Below, one piece after another: positions 2,696 through 15,737 of a stretch of 64,000 bases of DNA. The position numbers were made by a program, and so were the translations under genes. The notes under the pieces were generated by a model. It ran no database searches and was not told where the DNA came from. It saw nothing but the letters and a program-made list of their open reading frames with translations. The stretch's first letter is position 1. Every line of letters starts with the position of its first letter. This stretch comes from Cryomorphaceae bacterium (lineage in GTDB: Bacteria > Bacteroidota > Bacteroidia > Flavobacteriales_D > Cryomorphaceae). The stretch spans positions 1-64,000 of the forward strand of contig PXBH01000068.1 of NCBI GenBank assembly GCA_003565555.1. The letters run 5' to 3'.

Positions 2696-3595
2696 ATGCC
2701 TGTAAAAATCAGACTTCAGCGCCACGGACGAAAGGGACATCCCTATTTTCACATTGTAGTGGCGGACGCTCGCGCCCCGCGTGACGGGAGATACATAGAG
2801 CGTCTCGGATTTTATGATCCGAATACCAACCCGGCAAGCATCGAGCTCGATGTAGACGGCGCCGTAAAATGGCTCGGAAACGGAGCCCAGCCCACGGATA
2901 CCGCCCGTGCCATCCTTTCATACAAAGGGGTTTTGTACAAGAACCACCTGCTGAAAGGCGTAACCAAAGGTGCCCTCACCGAAGAGGAAGCCGAAAAACG
3001 TTTTGCTTCATGGCTCGAAGAGAAACAAGCCAAAATCGAAGCCAAGAAGAAAGGTATTTCCGACGCAGCCTCCAAAGCAGATCGGGACCGCCTTGCCGCT
3101 GAAGCTGAGGTAAACAAAGCACGTGCGGCTGCAATCGCCGCCGCCAATGCACCTGAACCGGAGCCGGAGGCGGAAGCTGCCGCAGCTCCCGAGGGTGAAG
3201 CAGCGGAAGGAGATACGGCCGTAGCGGCTGCTCCCGCAGAAGAAGCGCCCTCAACCGAAGCCGCTCCGGCAGAAGAGGTGAAGGAGGAAGCTCCCAAAGC
3301 AGAAGCCAAAGAGGAAGCTCCGAAGGCTGAAGCCGCAGAAGAAGCTCCCAAGGCTGAAGCAAAAGAAGAGGCTCCGAAGGCTGAGGCCGAGGAAGAAGCT
3401 CCCAAAGCTGAAGCAAAAGAAGAGGCTCCGAAAGCTGAGGCCGAGGAAGAAGCTCCCAAAGCTGAAGCAAAAGAAGAGGCTCCGAAAGCTGAGGCCGAGG
3501 AAGAAGCTCCCAAAGCTGAAGCCAAAGAGGAGACTCCGAAGGCTGAAGCCGAGGAAGAAGCTCCCGCTGAGAAAAAAGAAGAAGAGAAAAAGTAA
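2696..3595 (+). CDS. rpsP: 30S ribosomal protein S16 with long repetitive acidic tail
   Basis: The first 80 or so residues are ribosomal protein S16 (MPVKIRLQRHGRKGHPYFHI; RYIERLGFYDPNT), a small-subunit assembly protein. Usual S16 proteins are about 80-90 residues, and Bacteroidota forms are often somewhat longer; this one has 299. After the core comes a Lys/Glu-rich helical stretch (100-150), an Ala/Pro/Glu-rich region (150-196), then ten copies of a nonapeptide EEAPKAEA[K/E/A] at residues 197-286 and a lysine-rich end. The frame is intact through the DNA repeat and ends with TAA. rimM follows, the usual partner in ribosome maturation, but a terminator hairpin lies between them. The S16 call is secure; the function of the tail is unknown. 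Confidence 0.95.
   Translation: MPVKIRLQRHGRKGHPYFHIVVADARAPRDGRYIERLGFYDPNTNPASIELDVDGAVKWLGNGAQPTDTARAILSYKGVLYKNHLLKGVTKGALTEEEAEKRFASWLEEKQAKIEAKKKGISDAASKADRDRLAAEAEVNKARAAAIAAANAPEPEPEAEAAAAPEGEAAEGDTAVAAAPAEEAPSTEAAPAEEVKEEAPKAEAKEEAPKAEAAEEAPKAEAKEEAPKAEAEEEAPKAEAKEEAPKAEAEEEAPKAEAKEEAPKAEAEEEAPKAEAKEETPKAEAEEEAPAEKKEEEKK
3284..3553 (+). repeat. 27/54-bp tandem repeat inside rpsP
   Basis: Ten in-frame 27-base units encode EEAPKAEA plus K, E or A. The last residue alternates K and E over most of the array, so the best DNA period is 54 bases; near-identical copies begin at 3389, 3443 and 3497. The repeat keeps the reading frame, so changes in copy number would lengthen or shorten the S16 tail without breaking it. 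Confidence 0.93.
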
Positions 3596-7376: not shown

Positions 7377-7548
7377 AAAATTCTAGGTTTAGAAAACGTC
7401 ATGCGAAGGTATCATTAGTAAATTCGGGGTGTCATTTTGCAACCTTATTTGTTTTCCACAGTAGGGCTGTAAAACTACGCAGGCATGATTTGGCACAAGG
7501 CTTGTGAAGTCATGATTCTAACGATTACATTAGCTAAACTTTTAACCC

Positions 7549-8523
7549 ATGAAAAGACATATTTCCCTCCTTGCGATTTCAGTCACAATGCTGATTTCAA
7601 GTGTGTTTTCCCAGAAAACATCTACGCTTGAAGTTTTTTCCGAGAACGGAGAAAAATTTTCTTTGGTCATCAACGGTGTATCACAAAATGACGCCCCGGC
7701 CACCAATGTAAAAGCCGAAGGACTCAAAGGTGATTTTCACCGCGTGTCCGTGACTTTTGAAGATGCTTCCCTCGGGATGGTAAACCAAAATTTTGCGCTG
7801 GATCCCGGAATGTATCAAAGGGCGAGTGTAGTGCTGCGCCGCAACGGAAAATACGCGATCCGTCCCTTCGGCGAACCCGTGGCTCTCGCGGAGGCGCCCG
7901 CCCCGGCACCTGCGCCTGCCCCTGCGGAGCGACCTGACCGCCAAGCCGAAATGCCGCGCGGCGGTGCCGTGACGGAGGTTACCGTGCCCGATGCGGAAAT
8001 CACCACCACGACCACCACTACGACTACGAAAACAGGAAGCGGTGAATCTGTCCGCATGGACATCGGTATCGGGGGGCAGCGTGTGGGTGTAAACGTGGAA
8101 GTGAACGATCCCACGCAGGAATCCGTACATTCGACCACAGTGATTGAAACCACCGAGACACGCGTCACCAAGGCGGCCCGCACCTCAGAAGCTGCTCCCG
8201 CCAACCCTCCCGCGGAAGAGAAAGTCGATGTCTGCGCCCCGATGGCATCCGGATCATTTGCCGGAGCCAAACGGTCCGTTGAATCAAAATCTTTTGCGGA
8301 TGAAAAGAAAACTACAGCCCGCCAAATTCTGCGCAGCAACTGCATGAGCACAGACCAAATCATTGAAATGATGGGAGCCTTCAGCTTTGAAGATGACAAG
8401 TTGGAGTTTGCAAAAATGGCTTATGACCGCTGCAGCGACCCTGAAAACTATTGGAAACTCAACGATGCCTTCACCTTTGGCGCTACAATAGAGGAACTGG
8501 ATGAATTTATACAGAGCAAATAG
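7549..8523 (+). CDS. Secreted DUF4476 protein
   Basis: A 324-residue exported protein. A signal peptide ends near VFSQ (residue 22). The N-terminal 100 residues are beta-rich. A low-complexity middle holds a Pro/Ala run (PAPAPAPAPA, near residue 120) and a run of nine threonines (near residue 155). The C-terminal 65 residues (RQILRSNCMSTDQIIEMM to the end) match the DUF4476 helical domain, common in Bacteroidota exported proteins and of unknown function. The next gene's ATG lies inside its last 23 bases, so the two are coupled. It likely belongs to the envelope cluster that follows. Confidence 0.8.
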   Translation: MKRHISLLAISVTMLISSVFSQKTSTLEVFSENGEKFSLVINGVSQNDAPATNVKAEGLKGDFHRVSVTFEDASLGMVNQNFALDPGMYQRASVVLRRNGKYAIRPFGEPVALAEAPAPAPAPAPAERPDRQAEMPRGGAVTEVTVPDAEITTTTTTTTTKTGSGESVRMDIGIGGQRVGVNVEVNDPTQESVHSTTVIETTETRVTKAARTSEAAPANPPAEEKVDVCAPMASGSFAGAKRSVESKSFADEKKTTARQILRSNCMSTDQIIEMMGAFSFEDDKLEFAKMAYDRCSDPENYWKLNDAFTFGATIEELDEFIQSK

Positions 8524-9934
8524 CATCTGTGCTCTGCACCATCGCACAAGAAGAGCAGCCGCCGGAGTCGGCAGGCTGTTTTTCTTCGCGGTGCTGATCG
8601 GCTTGCTTGCGGCCTGCACGGGCGCCCGCGGACTCACCAAGCGGGGCGCGGAAATGGAAGCCGCAGGCTTGTATACCGAGGCCGCCAACTTCTATTTTAA
8701 TGCCTTGCTGCGCGACAGGACGCGCACGGACGCACGGATCGGACTCAACAATACTGCAGGGCGCGTTTTCAACGACAAGCTGGACGTTTTTTCCCGGCAC
8801 CGCGCCATGGACGAACACGGCGAAGCCGTGGCCGCTTACACCGATGCAATGGCCTACAGAGATCGCATTGCAAGGGTGGGCATCAACTTGGACATGGCAT
8901 CCCATTTCGAAGATGATTTCAAATATTCCAAATCCGCCTACCTCCGCACCCTCTACGCTCGGGCGAATGACCTGATGGCAGAGCGGCGCTTCGATGAGGC
9001 CAAAGCCATTTTCAAAGATGTGATGCGCTTGGATCCCGATTACAAAGATGTAACGGAACTCAAAGGCGTTGCCCTCAACGAACCGCTCTACATGAGCGCT
9101 ACGGCGCACTTCGATGCCGGACGCTACCGAGAAGCTTTTTTTGACTTGGATCAAATCGTATCCAATGACCCCGACTATCGAGATGCAGCTATACTGCGGG
9201 CCGAGGCCCTCGAGCTCGGCCGTTTTCCCATTGCCCTCTCACCTTTCGAAAATGCTACGCCCGTAAACAATATTGAACGCCGCGTGTATGCGTTTTTCAT
9301 CACCGCGCTGAGCGAAATTGACGATCCCTTTGTGCGCGTCGTGGAGCGCGACAATATGGATAAAATTCTGGACGAACAACGCCTCAGTCTGAGCGGTATC
9401 GTAGACGAACGTACGGCGGGCCGCGTGGGAAATCTCTTGGGGGCGAAAGCGCTGCTTACCGCCACCGTACTTTCGTACTCCTCAAAGCCGGGCCGAGTTC
9501 GGGTCACTGAAAAAGAGGGATTCGAATCTTACCGCGTAAAGCTCTACAATCCCGCCACTGAAAGGAACTACTTTGAAACCCGCTACCGCCCGGTGAAATA
9601 CAATGAATACTTCAACAGAAACGAGGTCAGCATTTCGATTCAGTATAAAGCCATTTCTTTGGAATCGGGAGAATTGCTGTTTTCGCGCATCACCGAACGG
9701 ACGGAAGAAGACCAAATGTACTATGCGGCTTACGACGGCGAAGTGAACAATCTTTTCCCCGCGGGTCCGCAAGGCGTTCTCACCTCCAATCGGGACAGAC
9801 AGCGCCTGCAAAACCTCATTCGGGCACCGCGTACTGTAAGGTCTGTCGATGATCTGTCAAGCGCTGCCATCAGGAGCGCCGCAGAACAGCTGAACCGCGA
9901 CCTGACCGACCACCTCAACAAAGCAAACCGATGA
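8501..9934 (+). CDS. CsgG-like lipoprotein with N-terminal TPR region
   Basis: A 477-residue predicted outer-membrane lipoprotein with lipobox LLAAC (C39) after a long n-region. Residues 45-235 are helical and TPR-like (for example RRFDEAKAIFKDVMRLDPDY). Residues about 240-400 resemble the CsgG family: FENATP, then VVERDNMDKILDEQRLSLSG, then an LLGAKALLTATV strand. CsgG forms the curli export channel; related proteins include the flagellar factor FlgO. The ATG at 8501 overlaps the DUF4476 gene by 23 bases and has GAGGAA upstream; no start codon lies nearer the signal peptide. The next gene overlaps by 4 bases. CsgG-like homology is visible in motifs; channel formation is not shown. Confidence 0.72.
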   Translation: MNLYRANSICALHHRTRRAAAGVGRLFFFAVLIGLLAACTGARGLTKRGAEMEAAGLYTEAANFYFNALLRDRTRTDARIGLNNTAGRVFNDKLDVFSRHRAMDEHGEAVAAYTDAMAYRDRIARVGINLDMASHFEDDFKYSKSAYLRTLYARANDLMAERRFDEAKAIFKDVMRLDPDYKDVTELKGVALNEPLYMSATAHFDAGRYREAFFDLDQIVSNDPDYRDAAILRAEALELGRFPIALSPFENATPVNNIERRVYAFFITALSEIDDPFVRVVERDNMDKILDEQRLSLSGIVDERTAGRVGNLLGAKALLTATVLSYSSKPGRVRVTEKEGFESYRVKLYNPATERNYFETRYRPVKYNEYFNRNEVSISIQYKAISLESGELLFSRITERTEEDQMYYAAYDGEVNNLFPAGPQGVLTSNRDRQRLQNLIRAPRTVRSVDDLSSAAIRSAAEQLNRDLTDHLNKANR

Positions 9935-11298
9935 GGGGTCTCACCGCTATCTTGACGGTCCTCGTGCTTGCCGGCTGCGGCACACGCACCGAGACGGCGC
10001 AAACAGCGGCAGACCCGAGACCCGCTTGGGTCAGTTCGCGTCCCCTATCCGGCATGTACTACATAGGTATCGGGGTGGCCCAAAAGAATCCCAACACCAA
10101 TTATCAGCGCACGGCGCGGGAAAGTGCGCTTTCGGATCTCGCTTCGGAGATACAGGTCAATGTGAGCACCAACTCCCTGCTCTACACCTTAGAGCGCGAG
10201 TACAAGTTTGAACAGGAATTCAGAGAGACCATTCAGGTGACCTCTGATTTGGACCTGGAAGATTTTGAAATGGTCGATGTATGGGAAGATGCCAACAGCT
10301 TCTGGGTATACTACAGACTGAACAAACAGGATTACGCCGACAGGAAACGCGCAAAGAAAAACGCAGCCGAGAACCTCGCACTGGACTTCTACGCCAAGGG
10401 GCTGAGCGCAGAAAATGATCGTCAGTTCAATACCGCTGTTGATTCCTACCTCCGCGGGCTGCAGGCGCTCGAAAGCTTTTGGGCGGAGGCGAACAATGTG
10501 AGCTTTCAAGGCAATGACATTCTGCTGGACAATGCTTTATACACTGCGTTAAGGGACCTGCTCAGCGGGGTACGGATCAATGCGGAAAACGAAGTGCGAC
10601 TCACTTGGCAAAACAGTTTCCGCACCACGGCAAAGCTCTTGGTAACCGCTGCGGGCAGCGGCAATCCGCTGGAAGGCGTTCCGCTGAGCTACGAATATTT
10701 CGGTGCCTACGGGCGCTACCGCGGCAAGACCGCATCCAATGCCGACGGACGTGCCGATATCGCCATCAATGAAGCGGAAAAAGACCGCTCCGGTCATGTG
10801 CTGGTCACCGCAGTGGATACCGAATTTCTCTTTGAGCCCTTTCGCTCCGATCGGTTTATGCGCAGGCTCACGGAATCCATGCGGAGTGCCACCGCCCAAA
10901 CACCCATTCTCTATGTGGCACCGGTCGTCTACCTGGACACCGAAGAGAAAAATCTGGGCAGCCGAATGAGCACCGCCCCCCTTTCATCTGCCGTGAAGAC
11001 TTCACTCCTCAGGCGCGGCGTGCGCTTTACGGAAAACCGCAGCGACGCGGACTTGACGGTGATCATCCGCGCAGACACACGCAGCGGAAGCAGGGTACAG
11101 GGATTTGCCACCGGCTTTCTGGACCTGGACATCTCGGTACGTAACAATGCCACCCGCGAACGCGTGTACCATGTGAGCCGCGCAGACCTCCGGGGCACAG
11201 ACCTGGACTTTGAAAGAGCGGGCATCAAAGCATATGAAAACATCACCCGCAACATAGAATCAGAGTTAATGCGGCGAATGGCAAACGATTTATTTTAA
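9931..11298 (+). CDS. LPP20-like lipoprotein with additional C-terminal domains
   Basis: A 455-residue lipoprotein with lipobox VLAGC (C16). Residues about 28-150 match the LPP20/FlgP-like pattern: PAWVSSRPLSGMYYIGIGVA, then a helix with ARESALSDLASEIQVNVST, then FWVYYRLNKQDY. A short TPR-like helical piece follows (150-185). A beta-sandwich like a carboxypeptidase-regulatory or CnaB domain is at 230-300, and an uncharacterised alpha/beta domain fills 325-455. The layered order of an LPP20-like domain plus further domains recalls FlgT. Its ATG overlaps the CsgG-like gene by 4 bases (ATGA), showing coupling. Probably attached to the periplasmic face of the outer membrane. Confidence 0.72.
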   Translation: MRGLTAILTVLVLAGCGTRTETAQTAADPRPAWVSSRPLSGMYYIGIGVAQKNPNTNYQRTARESALSDLASEIQVNVSTNSLLYTLEREYKFEQEFRETIQVTSDLDLEDFEMVDVWEDANSFWVYYRLNKQDYADRKRAKKNAAENLALDFYAKGLSAENDRQFNTAVDSYLRGLQALESFWAEANNVSFQGNDILLDNALYTALRDLLSGVRINAENEVRLTWQNSFRTTAKLLVTAAGSGNPLEGVPLSYEYFGAYGRYRGKTASNADGRADIAINEAEKDRSGHVLVTAVDTEFLFEPFRSDRFMRRLTESMRSATAQTPILYVAPVVYLDTEEKNLGSRMSTAPLSSAVKTSLLRRGVRFTENRSDADLTVIIRADTRSGSRVQGFATGFLDLDISVRNNATRERVYHVSRADLRGTDLDFERAGIKAYENITRNIESELMRRMANDLF

Positions 11299-11356
11299 TG
11301 CAAAGCCAATTTTGGCACAGTTTCTGACATCTCATAAACCACAAAAGAAGAACACC

Positions 11357-11950
11357 ATGAAAGCACGAAGCACAGGCATTTTTGTACGCACCGGCATAAT
11401 GCTCTTTTTGGCTGCCGCGGTAGCCACAGGTTGCAAAAAGAAGAAAGACGCCGTTCAACCCGCCCCCGCAGGAGAAGAACTTGTCACAGAATATTGCGCA
11501 GGACCCGAATACTTCAGCAATGAAGAATTCTTTCGATCAAACGGGCTGGGCGAAAGCATGGATCAAGCTACTGCCCGCCGACGCGCCATGAGCAATGCCC
11601 GCGGGGACCTCGCCGCCGCTATCAGCACTACGGTAAAAGGCACAACCGACAACTACGTGAATTCACGTGAGTTCAACAACCGAGAGGAAGTGCAGGAGCG
11701 CTTCGAAAGCTTGACCCGCGAAGTCATCAATCAAGAGCTGAACGGTGTGAGAACCATCTGCCAGCAAGCCGTGCGCGTGACCGCCAACGGAAACTACAAG
11801 TACTACGTGGCCATCGAATTGAGCGGCCAAGAGCTCCTCGGTGCCATGAACAGCCGACTCTCGAATGACGAGCGACTCCGCATCGACTATGACTACGAGC
11901 AGTTCAAAAAAACCTTCGAGCAGGAAATGGAGAATTTCTCACGACGATAA
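11357..11950 (+). CDS. LPP20-like lipoprotein
   Basis: A 197-residue lipoprotein with lipobox VATGC (C26) followed by KKKKD. The core shows the LPP20 signature: EYCAGPEYFSNEEFFRSNGL, then a helix ARRRAMSNARGDLAAAISTT, a long amphipathic stretch, and YKYYVAIELSG near residue 155. The start at 11357 is chosen over an upstream in-frame start because it opens the signal peptide directly and has AAAAGAAG before it. It is the third gene of the CsgG-like/LPP20 cluster, 58 bases downstream, and is closed by a strong terminator. Its close pairing with another LPP20 protein suggests a multi-subunit periplasmic assembly. Confidence 0.73.
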   Translation: MKARSTGIFVRTGIMLFLAAAVATGCKKKKDAVQPAPAGEELVTEYCAGPEYFSNEEFFRSNGLGESMDQATARRRAMSNARGDLAAAISTTVKGTTDNYVNSREFNNREEVQERFESLTREVINQELNGVRTICQQAVRVTANGNYKYYVAIELSGQELLGAMNSRLSNDERLRIDYDYEQFKKTFEQEMENFSRR

Positions 11951-11974
11951 TCCCTTTCACTCTCCGAATTTTGA

Positions 11975-12010
11975 GGGGCCGATGCAATCTTGCATCGGCC
12001 CCTTTCTTTT
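11975..12010 (+). terminator. Strong rho-independent terminator closing the CsgG-like/LPP20 cluster
   Basis: Arms GGGGCCGATGCA (11975-11986) and TGCATCGGCCCC (11991-12002) form a 12-bp perfect stem with a 4-base loop, followed by TTTCTTTT. Confidence 0.88.
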
Positions 12011-14343: not shown

Positions 14344-15051
14344 GTGCACTATTTCCTCGACCCTGATTTTGATCCGAATGCCGGCATCCTCTGCCCGGAA
14401 GAAAGCCGCCACGCAATAAAGTCACTTCGGCTTGCGGCGGGCGACAGCATTCTTGTGGGCAACGGCAAGGGAAAACTCTACACCTGCACCGTGCGGCATG
14501 CGGGTCGAGACAGTCTGGCCACGGCGGTAACCGAAACGATGAGCATACCCCCGCCGCGCTTTCGGTTTGACCTCGCCGCAGCGCCGGTCAAAAATCCGAC
14601 GCGGTTTGAATGGTTCCTGGAAAAGGCCACGGAAACGGGCGTTCACACCATCACCCCCCTCCTGACCCGACGAACGGAAAGGCCCCGTTTTAAAACGGCA
14701 CGCGGCGAACGTATCATGCATGCAGCCGGCAAGCAGAGCAAAAGAGCATGGCTCGCCGAATTGAACCCGCTCACTCCTTTCGGAGATGTGCTGGGCAGCG
14801 CCCACGGGCTGAAGGTGATTGCCCATTGCGATGCAGACCGCGCAAGGCGAAACTTTGCCGATCTGATAAACGAAACTGCCGCAGAAAGCGTTTTGGTACT
14901 GATCGGCCCGGAAGGTGACTTCACTCCTGAAGAAATTGATGCCGCAGTTGCTGCGGGCTTTACGGAGGCCGACCTCGGACCGAACAGGCTGCGCACGGAA
15001 ACAGCAGGTGTGTATTGCGCATCCGTTTTGGCAGCAATGAAAATGAAATAA
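14344..15051 (+). CDS. rsmE: 16S rRNA (uracil1498-N3)-methyltransferase RsmE
   Basis: A 235-residue SPOUT-class methyltransferase. An N-terminal PUA-like domain (MHYFLDPDFDPNAG to about residue 70) precedes the trefoil-knot catalytic domain, with the signature LIGPEGDFTPEEIDAA (about 183-198) and LGPNRLRTETAGVYCASVLA at the C-terminus. It methylates N3 of U1498 in 16S rRNA. The start is GTG at 14344, since the conserved HYF follows at once. The next gene's ATG comes 9 bases after its stop, so it is co-transcribed with the DUF4159 protein. Confidence 0.93.
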   Translation: MHYFLDPDFDPNAGILCPEESRHAIKSLRLAAGDSILVGNGKGKLYTCTVRHAGRDSLATAVTETMSIPPPRFRFDLAAAPVKNPTRFEWFLEKATETGVHTITPLLTRRTERPRFKTARGERIMHAAGKQSKRAWLAELNPLTPFGDVLGSAHGLKVIAHCDADRARRNFADLINETAAESVLVLIGPEGDFTPEEIDAAVAAGFTEADLGPNRLRTETAGVYCASVLAAMKMK

Positions 15052-15059
15052 CCCCCGCT

Positions 15060-15737
15060 ATGAAAAAACTGTGCTTTCTGGTATTCATCTGCCTAACGGC
15101 AAACGGGCTCTTCGCCCAAAAAGATGCCTCATTTGCCCTCGCGGTGCTCCAATACCGCGGCGGAGGTGATTGGTACGCAAACCCAACCTCCGTGCCCAAC
15201 CTCCGGGACTTCTGCATAGAAAATCTGGGGATCAACCTCGGAGAAACACAATTCGCGGATGTGGGAAGTGCGGAACTGTTCAATTACCCCTGGGTGCACA
15301 TGACGGGGCACGGAAATGTAGTGTGGAACAGCAATGACATCGAAAACCTGAGGACCTATCTTCTCGGCGGAGGCTTTCTCCACATTGATGACAACTACGG
15401 CATGGACGCTTTCATCAGGCCGCAGATCAAAAAGCTCTTTCCCGATAAGGAGCTTGTAGAAGTCCCCTTCGATCATCCGATCTATCACCAAAAGTATTCC
15501 TTCAACGACGGCCTGCCCAAGGTACACGAGCACGACGGTCTGCCGCCGCAGGGCTTCGGTATTTTTCACGAAGGCCGAATCGTACTTTTTTACAGCTACG
15601 AAAGTGACTTGGGCAACGGCTGGGAAGATCCCGAGGTACACGGCGACCCGGAAGAAATCAGGCTCGAAGCGCTGAAGATGGGTGCCAACCTCGTGATGTA
15701 CGCACTCATGGGACAGGACGAGCCGGAAGCGGATTAA
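15060..15737 (+). CDS. Exported DUF4159 protein
   Basis: A 225-residue secreted protein. The ATG at 15060 opens a signal peptide ending near LFAQ (residue 20); an earlier start in the same frame lies inside rsmE and was discarded. The mature part matches DUF4159: FALAVLQYRGGGDWYANPTS, VHMTGHGNVVWNSNDIENLR, YLLGGGFLHIDDNYGMD and HPIYHQKYSF. The domain has a glutamine-amidotransferase-like, flavodoxin-like fold whose biochemical role is unknown. In Bacteroidota it often occurs as a stand-alone exported protein beside rsmE, as here. No lipobox. Confidence 0.85.
   Translation: MKKLCFLVFICLTANGLFAQKDASFALAVLQYRGGGDWYANPTSVPNLRDFCIENLGINLGETQFADVGSAELFNYPWVHMTGHGNVVWNSNDIENLRTYLLGGGFLHIDDNYGMDAFIRPQIKKLFPDKELVEVPFDHPIYHQKYSFNDGLPKVHEHDGLPPQGFGIFHEGRIVLFYSYESDLGNGWEDPEVHGDPEEIRLEALKMGANLVMYALMGQDEPEAD

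Follow-up and report, generated by a model that had tools for sequence, protein, structure and literature searches.

Introduction

The CsgG and LPP20 protein families have been studied as parts of curli and flagella, and FlgO, FlgP and FlgT form rings and disks around flagella. A related group in Helicobacter pylori comprises HP1454, HP1456 and HP1457, the last of which is presumably encoded in the same operon as the other two. In this study, we analyzed a locus of four genes, here called P1 to P4, in a 64,000-nucleotide stretch of DNA from a Cryomorphaceae bacterium (the window, which is contig C60 of a source genome of 3.7 Mb in 237 contigs). We found that P2, P3 and P4 form a conserved unit, and we consider, tentatively, that their products could together make up an outer-membrane scaffold, placed on the inner side. 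The parts of the trio belong to known families; a search of the open-licence PMC literature found no paper on the trio itself.

The available portion of PMC11756786 places HP1456 (Lpp20) and HP1454 in one operon and describes HP1454 as a protein of three domains, the first of which resembles HP1456; each of the two contacts FlgP and the outer-membrane ring protein FapH, and each self-associates. HP1457 is called an LpoB homologue in the accessible section of PMC11394524. An SHS2-like fold is common to FlgP, FlgT and H. pylori Lpp20, according to the part of PMC12222027 at hand, which also states that ring formation goes with an insert between the helix and the second strand of this fold.

Results

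P2, P3 and P4 are a conserved unit, to which P1 is an optional neighbour. An earlier note on this DNA had described four tightly ordered genes closed by a strong terminator, and the coordinates, the overlaps, the gap and the hairpin were all confirmed:

7549 to 8523, plus strand: P1, open reading frame, first gene of the tight four-gene row
8501 to 9934, plus strand: P2, open reading frame with a 23-base overlap with P1
9931 to 11298, plus strand: P3, open reading frame with a 4-base overlap with P2
11357 to 11950, plus strand: P4, starting at an ATG inside the listed frame 11312 to 11950, after a 58-base gap following P3
11973 to 12004, plus strand: intrinsic terminator that closes the operon, with a 14-pair stem (9 G-C pairs), a loop of 4 and a TCTTTT tail

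We surveyed 60 genomes, consisting of the bacterium's own genome and genomes of its family and order. A strong match to P2 (E 4e-46 or better) was present in 25 of them, a count that leaves out four further genomes with weak P2 matches only (E about 1e-4 to 1e-6). LPP20 and P4 were likewise each found in 25/60, and these were the same 25 genomes. When loci were counted (23 from relatives in Flavobacteriales plus the window), P2 and P3 overlapped or abutted in 24/24, and P4 followed within 76 nucleotides in 23/24. The exception is L056 (genome G033), where the P4 relative lies on a different contig; in the 25th genome (G023), P2 is cut by the contig end, with LPP20 and P4 after it. The genes that flank the trio are unlike between families f1 and f9. 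Because the gene order and the protein families recur at these frequencies, the operon is far beyond chance, and the survey of conserved neighbourhoods proposed in the earlier note came out in its favour. A separate search with one protein query found one locus, in a Flavobacteriales metagenome-assembled genome, whose P2 is 72% identical to that of the window.

P1 adjoins P2 in 12 of the 23 relatives' loci (13/24 counting the window). It is a secreted protein without a lipobox cysteine, and it has a Pro/Thr-rich middle and a C-terminal DUF4476 domain (Pfam E 2e-19); in the P1 alignment, one of the 12 relatives (L034) is without the DUF4476 part.

P2 is a lipoprotein in which TPR repeats are followed by a CsgG domain at residues ~240 to 410. 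Pfam agrees with the earlier note here, as it does for DUF4476 in P1: TPR is among the hits, and the CsgG match (PF03783) has an E value of 9.7e-12 and passes the cut-off (45.1 versus 20.8 bits), and CsgG matches 24/24 aligned P2 homologues. The LpoB model also matches 21 of these 24 at E<=1 (best 1.1e-6), the two profiles overlapping on the same proteins. Window P2 itself has no LpoB match at E<=1, and the P2 profile gives 9.2 bits on CsgG versus 4.0 on LpoB. The CsgG core is kept in P2, with ~55 extra residues (an insert at ~325 to 378) at a site that we take to correspond to membrane hairpin 1 in E. coli CsgG, which presumably has roughly 25 residues there. There is no insert at this place in LpoB or in the CsgG proteins of two loci from another class (L145 and L146), and a short one is present in L148 and L150. 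Searches of PDB sequences with the P2 and P4 profiles returned TPR proteins and nothing useful.

P3 is a lipoprotein whose N-terminal LPP20 domain is followed by a TPR-like stretch, a weak immunoglobulin-like (Ig-like) region and, at the C-terminus, a domain with weak similarity to DUF4136. Its LPP20 match (PF02169, E 1.1e-14) passes the cut-off with 55.1 versus 25.9 bits. Among 24 P3 homologues, LPP20 was found in all 24, DUF4136 in 6 (best E 3.9e-4) and the Ig-like domain Big_1, weakly, in 5. The P3 profile matches PDB entry 4kzs, deposited as an LPP20 lipofamily protein (E 1.8e-5), which we take to be H. pylori HP1454; its TPR matches are weak. Between the SHS2-like helix and the second strand, P3 has ~35 residues with a partly strand-type periodicity, in a test whose control strands failed. 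The earlier note had likened the extra domains of P3 to FlgT. The searches for CsgG and LPP20 that it proposed gave matches in P2 and P3, respectively, but neither the FlgO nor the FlgT model was among the Pfam hits of the window proteins at E<=1; the likeness of P3 to FlgT is thus unsupported, and HP1454 is a better parallel.

A 636-residue protein found in two genomes, at L120:7086-8996 (+) and L133:7318-9228 (+), matches the LPP20 and C-terminal profiles of P3; in L120, the protein combines LPP20 with an ARPP-1 domain. An LPP20 match close to the end of a contig in the window's own genome (G000:C128:5841-6050) may belong to a gene of the same type.

P4 is a small lipoprotein and the best conserved member of the trio. 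The earlier note had named two LPP20-like proteins; that description holds for P3 by its Pfam score, whereas P4 lies below the cut-off and its kinship comes from comparison with the P3 family. By hhalign, the P4 and P3 families match at 95% (E 2.5e-8) when the signal-peptide region is included and at 73% (E 3.2e-5) with the domain alone. LPP20 matches 18 of 23 P4 homologues at E<=1 (best 4.8e-4), and a homologue from family f19, with its neighbours in the frame, reaches 26 bits against the cut-off of 25.9. Because of this profile-profile match and because relatives of P4 reach about the cut-off, the view that P4 is probably a distant relative of LPP20 is supported. We gave no weight to the low-confidence order of elements in P4 (strand, helices, two strands, helices), which resembles the description of Lpp20 in the available portion of PMC11756786.

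An unlinked paralogue of P4, standing alone, is present in 18/25 genomes with the trio versus 0/35 others. The window's genome has two unlinked P4-like genes, at G000:C131:37927-38370 (-) and G000:C10:35628-35915 (-). In several f1 genomes (L066 to L072, 7 loci), the unlinked P4-like gene adjoins a conserved family, which in L068 is represented by a patatin-like phospholipase (Pfam E 7.7e-35). L166 likewise has a patatin gene, ahead of P4-P3.

The lipobox cysteine is invariant in all three proteins (P2 Cys39, 24/24; P3 Cys16, 24/24; P4 Cys26, 23/23), and in 43/71 P2, P3 and P4 sequences the three preceding residues agree with a simple lipobox pattern. Surface lipoproteins of Bacteroidota bear export motifs, K-(D/E)2 or Q-A-(D/E)2 in Capnocytophaga and SDDFE in Flavobacterium, as described in the accessible text of PMC5080379. 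After the cysteine, P2, P3 and P4 have chiefly neutral or basic residues, and 0/71 sequences carry a surface-export motif of the K/S/QA-acidic form. Because the lipobox cysteine is present and the surface-export signal is absent, P2, P3 and P4 are predicted to be periplasm-facing outer-membrane lipoproteins, which lends support to the placement of the assembly that the earlier note had suggested.

That note had also stated that curli and flagellar genes are lacking, and the markers bear this out for the bacterium and its relatives. CsgF was found in 0/60 genomes with a positive E. coli control (no search for CsgE was made), and FliF in 0/60 in a search that included positive control genomes. 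UB2H, the docking domain of PBP1B, was likewise found in 0/60, positive control genomes included.

Beyond the order, P4 was detected in 58/247 genomes of the class, from which we took 20 P4 loci, one or two per family. Nine of these hold P2, P3 and P4 (L164, L165, L171, L173 to L176, L182 and, with other genes between, L181), two hold P3-P4 only (L166 and L180), eight hold P4 alone, and in one (L172) a FlgT_N/DUF4384 protein lies beside P4. In family f19, of the same class and another order, P3-P4 without P2 was found in 3/3 loci from its genomes with LPP20. In L181, the CsgG protein passes the cut-off for FlgO as well, and L172 and L149 have weak FlgT domains. The L181 locus (L181:1336-8722, family f73) reads caspase-domain protein, P4, CsgG protein and P3.

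Related arrangements are found in other classes. In one genome (L146), the gene order of the window recurs: first a WD40-CsgG protein, which has WD40 where P2 has its TPR part, then a P3-like protein (4-base overlap) and then a P4-like protein. In L145, a short CsgG protein is paired with a P3 protein; LPP20 is at or just below the cut-off in both loci. Other families of the phylum have a trio that consists of a protein of ~450 residues (which we take to resemble COG3014), an LPP20 protein and an LpoB-like protein. The LPP20 protein of this trio aligns with P3 over its full length (98.6% profile match), and direct profile alignment of P2 with the ~450-residue or the LpoB-like protein was not convincing. 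P2 as a TPR-plus-LpoB fusion derived from the gene pair of alignments A7 and A8 was also considered and rejected, as direct profile comparisons give no support for it.

The remaining features of the locus concern its borders. The hairpin at 11973 to 12004 tops the 8 terminator-like hits of the region, and since shuffled sequences average 7.3 hits, it is only the strength of this hairpin that stands out. A promoter candidate upstream of P1, at 7503 to 7533, was found with what we take to be the Bacteroidota consensus; it has 2 mismatches and is at chance level (60 sites found versus 56.7 expected in the window), and we rejected it. Downstream of the operon, 15015 to 15737 encodes a DUF4159 protein (Pfam E 2.3e-68), which is retained at this place in several f1 loci. 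A pattern search also found ~27-base repeats at 3403 to 3514, upstream of a rimM-like gene; read on the plus strand, they give a Lys/Ala/Glu-rich stretch, perhaps, we presume, the low-complexity tail of ribosomal protein S16.

Discussion

The co-inheritance of P2, P3 and P4, a trio common in genomes where the tested curli and flagellar markers are absent, suggests that CsgG and LPP20 proteins have an outer-membrane job of their own. The reading that we favour, although we place it somewhat short of an even chance, is that the trio encodes a periplasm-facing outer-membrane lipoprotein scaffold, perhaps one that forms rings. In such a model, P2, P3 and P4 would assemble with one another at the outer membrane, on its inner side. 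The base or adaptor would be P2, with its TPR repeats and CsgG domain; P3 and P4, with their LPP20/SHS2-type domains, would be subunits that oligomerise, much as FlgO, FlgP and FlgT make rings and disks. Such a structure could lend stability to the envelope or anchor another trans-envelope machine. In a bolder version, which seems to us doubtful, many Bacteroidota without flagella would possess a ring or disk machine of CsgG and LPP20/SHS2 lipoproteins at the inner face of the outer membrane, and the flagellar H-ring and basal disk would have a free-standing relative in the trio. If it were true, such a machine would show what these rings did before, or apart from, flagella. The trio also bears on the origin of the flagellar outer-membrane rings.

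Several observations weigh against the scaffold. LPP20 matches window P4 at E 0.0014 and 19.4 bits, under the gathering score of 25.9 bits. AlphaFold2 models made from a two-row alignment (the window and L061) reached a mean predicted local distance difference test score of 37 for P2 and 42 for P4, too poor to judge either fold, and Foldseek found no match to the P4 model at E<=0.001. The trio is not obligatory, because P4 and P3-P4 are found without P2 in some families. From H. pylori, the available portion of PMC11756786 reports no mutual interaction of HP1454 and HP1456 in a two-hybrid test, and reports that deletion of hp1456 left flagella, motility, bacitracin resistance and motor structure unchanged.

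Among the alternatives, the one that survives best casts P2 as an LpoB-like protein that extends from the outer membrane to the cell wall and regulates how peptidoglycan is made or remodelled; P3 and P4 would be its partners. The LpoB matches among P2 homologues speak for it, as does the description of HP1457 given above. So does the trio of other classes, in which a P3-related LPP20 protein is flanked by the ~450-residue protein and a member of the LpoB family (E 1.9e-37 in L121); in 7 such loci, the LpoB-like neighbours align with one another. In L124, an LPP20 pair adjoins a murein transglycosylase gene. However, CsgG outscores LpoB on the P2 profile, window P2 falls outside the LpoB matches, its direct comparison with the LpoB family of the other classes gives no convincing alignment, and UB2H is missing from all 60 genomes. 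We consider this alternative unlikely, though deserving of some weight.

It is less likely again that P2 is a CsgG-like outer-membrane pore through which the operon exports some product, with P3 and P4 as a periplasmic gate or chaperones; we regard this as improbable. The insert at the presumed position of membrane hairpin 1 in E. coli CsgG would fit a pore, as would the preference of the P2 profile for CsgG over LpoB, but the alignment reads as rich in charged residues on both faces of the insert, and it is missing from the CsgG proteins that stand with P3-like genes in L145 and L146. We recognised no conserved gene for a cargo in the operon. The earlier note had proposed a different cargo, which would mean export; this idea has no support, as no CsgF was found in the 60 genomes and the L146 CsgG protein is without the first-hairpin segment.

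Type IX secretion and gliding form the main trans-envelope machine of these bacteria. That the trio is an accessory of this machinery is very improbable. In favour, GldM is present in 25/25 genomes with the trio versus 25/35 without it (Fisher p 0.003, a value that ignores ancestry). On the other side, one family (f8) accounts for 9 of the 10 genomes that lack GldM, so common descent could be the whole reason for the link; 25 genomes carry GldM without the trio, and no type IX secretion genes were recognised beside the trio, although no systematic search was made.

The scaffold that we favour can be set beside four known systems. With curli secretion (CsgG with CsgE and CsgF), the trio has in common a CsgG domain on an outer-membrane lipoprotein, and it differs in the TPR N-terminus of P2, the longer insert, the LPP20 partners and the absence of CsgF. 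With FlgO, FlgP and FlgT, it appears to share the CsgG/FlgO-type and LPP20/SHS2-type folds and, for FlgO and FlgP, the outer-membrane lipoprotein character; unlike them, it occurs in genomes without the flagellar marker FliF. With LpoB and the LPP20-LpoB trio of other classes (alignments A7 to A9), the relation of P3 over its length is to the LPP20 protein. To our knowledge, no TPR-CsgG fusion has been described in the H. pylori group. H. pylori is a flagellated bacterium whose HP1454 and HP1456 contact FlgP and FapH, which sets it apart from the trio genomes. Even so, its HP1454/HP1456/HP1457 group is the closest parallel, although we do not claim orthology: as in the trio, a larger multidomain LPP20 protein and a small LPP20 lipoprotein stand together, and HP1457 is described as a homologue of LpoB.

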